This document shows positions 3,553 through 30,784 of a stretch of 64,000 bases of DNA, piece by piece. The notes under the pieces were generated by a model. It was not told where the DNA came from. It worked only from the letters and a program-made list of their open reading frames with translations, and searched no databases. Positions within the stretch are counted from its first letter, which is position 1. Every line of letters starts with the position of its first letter. The stretch spans positions 2,988,001 to 3,052,000 of the forward strand of contig JAJKFH010000948.1 in the NCBI GenBank assembly GCA_023333565.1, read 5' to 3'. The stretch comes from Puffinus mauretanicus. Its lineage: Eukaryota > Chordata > Aves > Procellariiformes > Procellariidae. The position numbers and the translations under genes were made by a program.

Positions 3553-4144
3553 TTCTGTGTGCTGGTTTTGGCTGGGATAGAGTTAATTTTCTTCACAGTA
3601 GCTAGTGTGGGGCTATTGAAAACAGTCTTGATAACTGACTGGGATGTTTTAGTCACTGCTGAGCAGTGTTTACACACAGTCAAGGCCTTTTCTGCTTCTC
3701 ACACCACCCCACCAGCGAGGAGGCTGGGGGTGCACAAGAAGTTGGGAGGGGACACAGCTGGGACAGCTGACCCCAGCTGACCAAAGGGATATTCCATACC
3801 ATAGGATGTCATGCTCAGCATATAAAGCTGGGGGAAGAAGAACAAGTGGGACACATTTGGAGTGATGGCGTTTGTCTTCCCAAGTAACGGTTAGGCGTGA
3901 TGGAGCCCTGCTTTCCTGGAGATGGCTGAACACCTGCCTGCCAGCGGGAACCAGTGAAGGAATTCCTTGTTTTGCTTTGCTTGTGTGCGCAGCTTTTGCT
4001 TTTCCTATTAAATTGTCTTTATCTCAACCCACGAGCTTTCTCACTTTTACCCTTCTGATTCTCTCCCTCATCCCACCCTGGGGGGAGTGAGCGAGCGGCT
4101 GTGTGGGGCTTAGTTGTCGGTTGGGGTTAAACCATGAGATTCTG
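3553..4144 (+). mobile_element. Solo LTR, provirus-related ERV family, with TSD TTCTG
   Basis: The LTR body is 3558-4139 (582 bp). It begins TGTGCTGGTTTTGGCTGGGA and ends TTAAACCATGAGA, so the usual terminal TGACA has changed to TGAGA. A perfect 5-bp target-site duplication TTCTG flanks it at 3553-3557 and 4140-4144. A TATA box (TATAAA, 3821-3826) and an ATTAAA poly(A) signal (4007-4012) mark the promoter and the R region. Internal sequence is absent, so this is a solo LTR left by recombination between two LTRs. A short part of U3 after GTGGGGCTAT is missing compared with the copy at 21402. The family resembles the 5' LTR of the provirus at 8197 and is common in bird genomes; I place it near the ERVL-like group, by recall only. 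Confidence 0.93.
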
Positions 4145-8196: not shown

Positions 8197-8770
8197 TGTC
8201 CTGGTTTCGGCTGGGATGGAGTTGATTTTCTTCCTATTAACTGCTATAGTGCTGTGTTTTGGATGTAGTGTGAGAATAATGTTAATGACACACTGATGTT
8301 TTGGTTGTTGCTAGGTAATGTTTATGCTAGTCAAGGATTTTTCATCTTCCCATGCCCTGCCAGATGTGCAGGGGGCTGGGAGGGAGCATGGCCAGGACGG
8401 CTGGCCCAGCTGGTCCATGGACTATTCCATACCATATGACATCATGCTCAACATATAAGGCTGGGGGAAGAAGAAGGAGGGGGGGACGTTCGGCGTGATG
8501 GCGTTTGTCTTCCCAAGTAACCGTTACATGTAATGGAGCCCTGCTTTCCTGGAGATGGCTGAACACCTGCCTGCCGATGGGAAGTAGTAAATGAATTCTT
8601 TGTTTTGCTTTGCTTGCGTGCGCGGCTTTTGCTTTCCCTATTAAACTGTCTTTATGTCAACCCACGAGTTTTCTCACTTTTACTCTTCTGATTCTCTCCC
8701 CCATCCCACCAGGGGGAGTGAGCGAGCAGCTGTGTGGTGCTCAGTTGCCAGCTGGGGTTAAACCACAACA
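8197..8770 (+). mobile_element. 5' LTR of the provirus
   Basis: 574 bp, beginning TGTCCTGGTTTCGGCTGGGA and ending TTAAACCACAACA. A TATA box (TATAAG, 8454-8459) lies upstream of the transcribed region and an ATTAAA poly(A) signal lies at 8640-8645, about 186 bp downstream. The central part (GGGGGAAGAAGAAGG, then the segment through CTTGCGTGCGCGGC) is shared with the solo LTRs at 3558, 21402, 30094 and 45057, but not with the 3' LTR of this same element. Confidence 0.93.
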
Positions 8771-8796
8771 GTCCTTTTTGGTGCCCAACGTGGGGC
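8771..8796 (+). promoter_or_regulatory. Spacer and primer-binding site, tRNA-Lys(CUU) type
   Basis: The 18 bases TGGTGCCCAACGTGGGGC (8779-8796) match the complement of the 3' end of vertebrate tRNA-Lys(CUU), including its CCA, at 17 of 18 positions (C to T at base 4). The same primer is used by some mammalian betaretroviruses. An 8-nt spacer GTCCTTTT (8771-8778) separates it from the LTR end; the same spacer recurs at 30685-30692. Confidence 0.85.
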
Positions 8797-21396: not shown

Positions 21397-22000
21397 GTAA
21401 CTGTGCTGGTTTTGGCTGGGATAGAGTTAATTTTCTTCACAGTAGCTAGTGTGGGGCTATGTTTTGGATTTGTAATGGAAACAGTGTTGATAACACAGGG
21501 ATGTTTTAGTCACTGCTGAGCAGTGCTTGCACAGAGCCAAGGCCTTTTCTGCTTCTCACCCCACCCCACCAGCGAGGAGGCTGGGGGTGCACAAGAAGTT
21601 GGGAGGGGACACAGCCGGGACAGCTGACCCCAACTGACCAAAGGGATATTCCATACCATAGGACGTCATGCTCAGCATATAAAGCTGGGGGAAGAAGAAG
21701 GAAGGGGGAGACATTCAGAGTGATGGCGTTTGTCTTCCCAAGTAACCGCTACATGTAATGGAGCCCTGCTTTCCTGGAGATGGCTGAACACCTGCCTGCC
21801 GATGGGAACCAGTGAGTGAATTCCTTGTTTTGCTTTGCTTGCATGCGCGGCTTTTACTTTACCTATTAAACTGTCTTTATCTCAACCCACGAGTTTTCTC
21901 ACTTTTACCCTTCTGATTCTCTCCCCCATCCCAGTGGGGGAAGTGAGCAAGTGGCTGTGTGGTGCCTAGTTGCCATCTGGGGTTAAACCACGACAGTAAC
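21397..22000 (+). mobile_element. Solo LTR, provirus-related family, TSD GTAAC
   Basis: The LTR body is 21402-21995 (594 bp), from TGTGCTGGTTTTGGCTGGGA to TTAAACCACGACA. Perfect GTAAC duplications lie at 21397-21401 and 21996-22000. A TATA box TATAAA lies at 21678-21683, and the ATTAAA poly(A) signal is in the CCTATTAAACTG segment. It is the most complete copy of this subfamily in the window and serves as a reference for the deletions in the copies at 3558 and 30094. Confidence 0.95.
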
Positions 22001-30088: not shown

Positions 30089-30784
30089 AGGGGTGTGTTG
30101 GTTTTGGCTGGGACAGGTTAATTTTCTTCATAGAAGCTAGTATGAGACGATGTTTTAAATTTGTGCTAAAAACAGTGTCGATAACACAGGGATGTTTTAG
30201 TCACTGCTAAGCAGTGCTTAGACAGAGTCAAGGCCCTTTCTGCTTCTCACCCCACCCCACCAGTGAGGAGGCTGGGGGTGCACAAGAAGCTGGGAGGGAG
30301 CATAGCCGGCACAGCTGACCCCAACAGACCAAAGGGATATTCCATACCATAGGACATCATGCTCAACATATAAAGCTGGGGGAAGAAGAAGGAAGAGGGG
30401 ACGTTTGGAGTGATGGCGTTTGTCTTCCCAAGTAACCGCTACGCGTGATGGAGCCCTGCTTTCCTGGAGATGGCTGAACACCTGCCTGCCCATGGGAAGC
30501 AGTGAATGAATTCCTTGTTTTGCTTTGCTTGCGTGCGCGGCTTTTGCCTTACCTATTAAACTGTCTTTATCTCAACCCACGAGTTTTCTCACTTTTACCC
30601 TTCTGATTCTCTACCCCATCCCACCCTGGGGGGAGTGAGCGAGCGGCTATGTGGGGCTTAGTTGCCGACGGTTAAACCATGACAGTCCTTTTTGGTGTTC
30701 AGTGGGGTTCGAACCCAGGACCCTGAGATAAAGAGTCTCATAGCTCTACCGACTGAGCAGCTGGGGTTAAACCATGACAAGGGG
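30089..30784 (+). mobile_element. LTR with captured primer tRNA and duplicated LTR end, TSD AGGGG
   Basis: The unit is 30094-30779 (686 bp) between perfect AGGGG duplications (30089-30093 and 30780-30784). Positions 30094-30684 form an ordinary LTR (591 bp, TATAAA at 30369-30374, end TTAAACCATGACA). Then come the 8-nt spacer GTCCTTTT (30685-30692), a degraded primer-binding site, a reverse-complement tRNA-Lys copy, and a second 21-bp copy of the LTR end (AGCTGGGGTTAAACCATGACA without the last base group altered; 30759-30779). The duplication encloses everything, so the tRNA segment belongs to the integrated unit and is not a later insertion beside it. The first LTR end has lost a few bases (GCCGACGGTT against GCCRGCTGGGGTT in other copies), while the second end keeps AGCTGGGGTT. 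Confidence 0.93.
30693..30766 (-). pseudogene. tRNA-Lys(CUU)-derived pseudogene captured from the ERV primer
   Basis: On the minus strand the sequence follows a tRNA-Lys with anticodon loop CUCUUUA (anticodon CUU), D-arm GCTCAGTCGGTAGAGC, T-arm GGGTTCGAACCC, and a 3' CCA next to the former primer-binding site. Compared with the vertebrate tRNA-Lys(CUU) as I recall it, it differs by a 2-base deletion in the acceptor/T-stem, a 1-base insertion after the D-arm, loss of the A in UAGCUC, and about three substitutions. Acceptor-stem pairing is broken and the 5' end merges into LTR sequence at AGCTGGGG. It is therefore a pseudogene, copied from the primer, not a chromosomal tRNA gene. It is about 71 nt of the expected 73 plus CCA. 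Confidence 0.88.

Follow-up and report, generated by a model that had tools for sequence, protein, structure and literature searches.

A long terminal repeat (LTR) in a 64,000-nt stretch of Puffinus mauretanicus contig JAJKFH010000948.1 (hereafter the window) is followed by a copy of a lysine tRNA and by a second, truncated LTR end, and the whole is enclosed by one pair of target-site duplications (TSDs). The usual stop for plus-strand synthesis on a retroviral tRNA primer is tRNA position 58. We put at roughly 70% the probability that the plus strand that gave rise to this LTR overran the position-58 stop, copied the tRNA nearly to its 5' end and then jumped template to the start of a viral DNA. 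The LTR, spacer, primer-binding site (PBS), tRNA copy and U5 tail can be read directly between the two TSDs, and 14 other separately located units with tRNA-Lys copies are likewise seen directly elsewhere in the genome; we infer the order of events solely from these products.

The layout of the focal unit is given in Table 1. The LTR starts TGTGTTGG and ends CATGACA, and its TG...CA termini and 5-bp AGGGG duplication are those of an endogenous retrovirus or LTR retroelement. The initial annotation had the tRNA copy running on from the spacer and PBS inside a single AGGGG pair, and both points were borne out by reading the sequence: LTR end, spacer, PBS and tRNA are contiguous, with the complement of CCA and nucleotides beyond A58, as in a read-through product. 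Its description of the tRNA copy as entire holds in part. The copy is certain to G10; the next 7 nt (AGCYGGG) can be tRNA or LTR, and full length is possible and unproven. Some copies at other loci do reach tRNA position 2-5. Compared with the closest family LTR ends, the 21-bp tail has 1 of 21 positions different; compared with the end of the focal LTR itself, which is decayed, it has 5.

Table 1. Features of the focal LTR-tRNA unit (positions in the window).
Feature	Position	Strand	Basis or remark
Left target-site duplication, AGGGG	30089..30093	.	read from sequence
LTR, TG to CA, complete	30094..30684	+	~90% and ~88% identity to window LTRs 21402-21995 and ~3557-4138
8-nt spacer GTCCTTTT, U5 to primer-binding site	30685..30692	+	also in window copy (near 8771-8778) and at other loci
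Primer-binding site, decayed, complementing tRNA 3' end with CCA; 2 nt missing	30693..30708	+	alignment
tRNA-Lys(CUU) copy, CCA to G10	30693..30758, possibly to 30765	-	alignment score and Rfam tRNA match
A-to-T change at tRNA position 37	30730	-	alignment; T also in L013, C in L029
Join AGCTGGG, common to LTR end and tRNA 5' part (AGCCGGG)	30759..30765	+	sequence
Second LTR (U5) end, 21 bp, AGCTGGGGTTAAACCATGACA	30759..30779	+	1/21 differs from L015 end and from end of window LTR 45057
Right target-site duplication, AGGGG	30780..30784	.	read from sequence

The assignment to tRNA-Lys(CUU) was upheld by alignment to tRNA-Lys reference sequences. The focal copy scored 96 against Lys(CUU) and 64 against Lys(UUU), while the best of 2,000 shuffles scored 26 and the best match elsewhere in the window 36. 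Rfam matched the copy to RF00005 at 22.2 bits, below the gathering score of 29, and ARAGORN called no tRNA gene on it. Both results are in line with decay of the copy and with the loss of its 5' acceptor strand.

Normal copies of the same retrovirus family provide the background for this structure. The two window relatives listed in Table 1 carry 5-bp TSDs (GTAAC for 21402-21995 and TTCTG for ~3557-4138), and a third window copy (~8375-8770) has the same spacer followed by TGGTGCCCAACGTGGGGC and then by non-tRNA sequence. Most normal loci seen read PBS, TCGAA, GGGTT, the TCGAA behind the 18-nt PBS matching tRNA A58 to U54. The polypurine tract AAGGGGTGG precedes several 3' LTR starts of the family, many loci have a PBS, and a piece inside one locus (L020) encodes an RNase H domain, so that the relatives are those of a retroelement. 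The family may belong to class III (ERVL-like, spuma-related), whose elements it resembles in its tRNA-Lys primer, over-extension sequence and 5-bp TSD; a solved-structure search on the class III question with one family piece gave no match. A pattern scan that tolerates up to 2 mismatches found about 1,767 normal primer sites in the genome, and the corresponding read-through pattern found 10; each pattern when reversed found 0. The resulting ratio of ~0.6% is rough, as the two patterns differ in length. The read-through pattern misses the focal unit, L037 and the L003 group, whose sequences have diverged too far from it. Among the 100 normal sites listed, the base opposite A58 was A instead of T in 16 and C or G in none (hand count), and the window copy at ~8375-8770 also reads A there (window 8797). 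This A may be an inherited variant, or m1A58 may have been miscopied repeatedly.

The initial annotation presented the focal unit as a rare fossil and proposed a search for further LTR-tRNA units. That search, run on the bird's own genome with the focal junction, the spacer plus tRNA, the tRNA part and the read-through pattern and followed by locus mapping, found 14 more, which rules out uniqueness. At least 15 separately located tRNA-Lys units are thus present (the focal unit, L002, the L003 group, L008, L013, L028, L029, L037, L038, L039, L043, L044, L045, L066 and L082). The count is a lower bound, since 40 of 622 candidates were scored with the focal junction and 40 of 673 with the spacer plus tRNA; a further tRNA search of the genome, in which all 18 candidates were scored, gave no new unit. 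In 13 of the 15 units found, the spacer and PBS stand directly before the tRNA copy, with the CCA complement in exact register. In the other two, L044 and L066, the tRNA copy adjoins the U3 side instead and ATAC is retained. In some normal copies these 4 nt separate the polypurine tract from the start of the LTR; ATAC lies at 1497-1500 of L044 and at the join of L066; judged from these joins, it is as though an unprocessed U3 end had been used.

Three further loci were set aside. L036 belongs to the L003 group and was not counted separately. L041 (G000:C893:212779-212847) is a gene-like tRNA-Lys without CCA, and is the only gene-like tRNA-Lys(CUU) recovered from the 1.2-Gb assembly; that other tRNA-Lys genes were not recovered is perhaps due to an assembly or search gap. 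In L040 (~1490-1568; G000:C25), 10-bp direct repeats (TACATTCTCC) flank a tRNA-Lys piece that sits next to an inverted LTR, on its U3 side, and out of register with a spacer; the piece may be a separate tRNA insertion. L040 lends some colour to a separate origin for the focal unit as well, in which insertion or gene conversion placed a tRNA fragment behind a solo LTR that was already there. A misjoined assembly is a further alternative. We consider both very unlikely, given that LTR, spacer, PBS and tRNA stand in exact register in 13 of the 15 units, that the complement of CCA is present, and that a single TSD pair surrounds everything in 7.

Those 7 of the 15 units found have perfect 5-bp TSDs: AGGGG (focal), ACATC (L008), AGGAA (L013), GGTGG (L029), CTGGG (L038), AAGGC (L045) and ACTCT (L082). 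L039 has a TSD with 4 of 5 positions matching. For the remaining 7 (L002, the L003 group, L028, L037, L043, L044 and L066) the search turned up no TSD or did not get as far as the right end, which counts against the jump model. Of the 8 TSD-bearing units, the focal one terminates on the right in a U5 tail and the other seven (L008, L013, L029, L038, L039, L045 and L082) in an inverted U3. The inverted U3 is ~23-24 nt long in L038 and L082, 70 nt in L029, where its last base is altered, 206 nt in L008, and longer in L013, L039 and L045. L039 and several left LTRs (L008, L013) contain internal deletions or a nested LTR, and L045 continues through inverted internal sequence and an inverted PBS to an inverted LTR.

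The partners joined to the tRNA copies also vary. In L013 the tRNA copy abuts a full-length 5S rRNA (Rfam positions 1-120, E 2e-17), after which comes an inverted LTR. In L043 the tRNA copy gives way near position 20 to reverse-complemented U6 snRNA, entered at its 3' end, with 98% identity over U6 52-107 and a Rfam U6 score of 54.3 bits; the downstream sequence is pol-like by eye, and an AAAGG considered as a TSD was dropped because it sits in that sequence. L037 consists of LTR, a tRNA copy to the 5' end, and then sequence common to other family loci. Within the locus pieces examined, neither L037 nor L043 showed a 3' LTR. L020 served as a control with a normal stop: its tRNA complement ends at the 18-nt point and joins inverted pol containing the RNase H domain, and the locus terminates in a 38-bp U5 tail. 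Its possible TSD matches at 3 of 5 positions and was not counted. Between the inverted pol and the U5 tail lies an intron-less carboxypeptidase-like coding sequence (L020 2593-3073, continuing in L074 1-320; G000:C220), with a PDB match to carboxypeptidase N (E 9.5e-13), which looks like captured host mRNA.

These structures bear on whether the focal tail arose by a jump of reverse transcriptase or by deletion after integration. On the latter account, a longer read-through provirus (LTR, tRNA, internal sequence, 3' LTR) lost sequence at AGCYGGG, which brought the final 21 bp of its 3' LTR up to the tRNA copy; the read-through would be real and the tail would owe nothing to a jump. Such proviruses exist, L037 apparently being one, the join sits in a 7-nt common stretch, and the focal sequence is equally given by a deletion there, which weighs against the jump model. 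The inverted U3 right ends in 7 of 8 TSD-bearing units, however, cannot be produced by simple deletion of a normal provirus, and the short U5 tail of L020 adjoins cell-derived coding sequence. Given that tail, a truncated U5 start joined to other sequence is not unique to the focal unit. Deletion is a minority reading, improbable though to be taken seriously, and might be the source of the focal tail alone.

We favor template jumping and propose the following course. A tRNA copy overhanging the PBS would cause second strand transfer to fail, so that the overrun plus-strand strong-stop DNA would persist. Another nascent viral strand (the second strand), whose 5' end carries an LTR terminus, would anneal to the overrun strand's 3' end and be extended along that strand back to the U3 terminus. 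For the focal unit this second strand would be minus-strand DNA starting in U5, and for most other units plus-strand DNA starting in U3. This would yield a short linear duplex that integrase could use at either end and that would integrate in the usual way. For L013 we suppose that the second strand began by copying an entire 5S rRNA; for L043, that it was the overrun strand that switched to U6 snRNA, at the 3' end of that RNA, and went on from there to internal viral sequence. The orientations of the 5S and U6 segments fit. A second strand with an LTR start that copies back to U3 explains why right ends are of two kinds and why the units are of LTR-only size. The initial annotation's reading of the locus, that synthesis went past A58 and then joined an LTR end, is thus supported by the focal structure and by the 14 other units: one TSD pair encloses LTR, tRNA and tail, the spacer/CCA register is kept in nearly all, and the right ends of 8 units are those that an LTR-start strand would leave. 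The variety of stop points, partners and tRNA forms, including the 5S and U6 fusions, lends the jump model further support.

The annotation had also suggested that further copies, if found, might mean that the structure itself had been mobilised. This suggestion fared less well: tRNA form, stop point and partner vary from unit to unit, and 7 of the 15 are each flanked by a perfect TSD of their own. The tRNA copies carry either A29-U41 or G29-C41, with both mixed in L002 and L066; the two forms are tRNA-Lys(CUU) isodecoders. The copies stop at about position 37-39 (L045, L082), at 29 (L039), 20 (L043), 12 (L028), 10 (focal, L008, L029), 9 (L038) and 5 (L013), and at 1-3 (L002, the L003 group, L037). 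The stops at G10 and at U20 may correspond to modified sites. L045 and L082, the two copies that stop near 37-39, share a C-to-G change at tRNA position 40. An inherited subfamily, descended from one retrovirus whose leader RNA carried a tRNA-Lys stretch, might be suspected from the existence of at least 15 units, one of them in at least 6 places. That unit (L003-L007/L036), however, shares its flanks at ~92-99% identity and on this evidence is a product of segmental duplication together with its flanks. The differences in tRNA form, stop point and neighbours among units, and the 1,767 normal leaders against 10 read-through sites in matched pattern scans, also run counter to common descent. 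The two tRNA forms and the many stop points indicate repeated events and not one mobilised element, and a single tRNA-bearing ancestor is about the least credible of the alternatives considered.

Base changes within the tRNA copies were compared by position. Transversions of A37 are present in 3 of the 13 copies that span it (T in the focal unit and L013, C in L029), against 0 of 114 other A's from position 11 on (p 9e-4), a test picked after two of the changes had been seen; with positions 1-10 included the comparison is 3/13 against 1/121 (p 0.003). A29 and A58 were left out of the comparison set. A first pooled test of A37 and A58 gave 6/27 against 0/125, and 6/28 against 0/114 with L082 added; a pool to which positions 54 and 55 were added was weaker (6/55 against 16/762, p 0.002). 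Dihydrouridine positions gave no signal (2/36 against 20/781, p 0.25). A58 is changed in 3 of 15 read-through copies, no better than the 16 of 100 listed normal sites with the same change (hand count), a point against the jump model; because A58 is not specific, only A37 was used. Positions 37 and 58 are published stops, though the A37 test was chosen post hoc. With that reservation the A37 transversions support the jump model. They hint that mature tRNA may have been the template; variants among the bird's own tRNA-Lys genes would also be compatible with them, one gene-like copy (L041) having been recovered. Reverse transcriptase is known to misread m1A (PMC4787781), and PMC13191261 describes A37 modification as a reverse transcription stop. 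If the A37 signal holds, genomes retain readable traces of ancient tRNA modification.

In sum, we lean, somewhat beyond even odds, toward regarding the whole set as a record, kept in the germ line, of second strand transfers that failed. Viral DNA, primer tRNA, 5S rRNA and U6 snRNA would have been joined by repeated end-to-end jumps, integrase would have accepted linear DNAs with U3 and U3 or with U3 and U5 ends, and miscopied bases would record an ancient position-37 modification. An overrun product would then not always be lost: once it has acquired another end that integrase can use, it can insert and pass to descendants, and entire host small RNAs can travel with it. Stop positions, jump partners and base errors can be read for each event from these loci, at ~10 read-through sites to 1,767 normal ones.

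No titles or abstracts found in the open-licence literature describe integrated LTR-tRNA units. Reilly and colleagues reportedly described in 1982 a mouse tRNA pseudogene that encodes CCA and proposed that it arose by a reverse flow of information; that pseudogene is not known to be one of an LTR-bounded, TSD-flanked series. At 2-LTR circle junctions, tRNA or PBS insertions arise where primer tRNA is copied beside U5. There a direct U3 follows the tRNA, whereas the focal unit has a U5 tail and seven units have an inverted U3, and a circle junction (U5, tRNA, direct U3) was rejected on this orientation. The primer over-extension sequence of lentiviruses and spumaviruses (PMC13191261) is like the TCGAA that follows the 18-nt PBS in normal family copies; the focal unit, in contrast, extends ~45 nt further into the tRNA. 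A close parallel in process is the overrun of HIV-1 plus-strand strong-stop DNA, in which the plus strand runs through U5 and PBS into the tRNA, with stops at 58, 55, 54 and 37 (the last three minor), and an unmodified primer is copied in full (PMC13191261); these HIV-1 observations favor the jump model. So far, most work on plus-strand DNA that misses the primer-tRNA stop has been done in vitro or with cultured cells, whereas the units described here are germline-integrated, with a second LTR end and TSDs. Such products are not inevitable, since HIV-1 with a mutated A58 gave integrated proviruses without extra tRNA sequence (PMC1785368), a finding that counts against the jump model. Retroviral particles also package 5S rRNA and U6, and 7SL has been found patched into a recombinant (PMC4997597); unlike those packaged RNAs, the 5S and U6 copies reported here lie directly at primer-tRNA copies, in old insertions.
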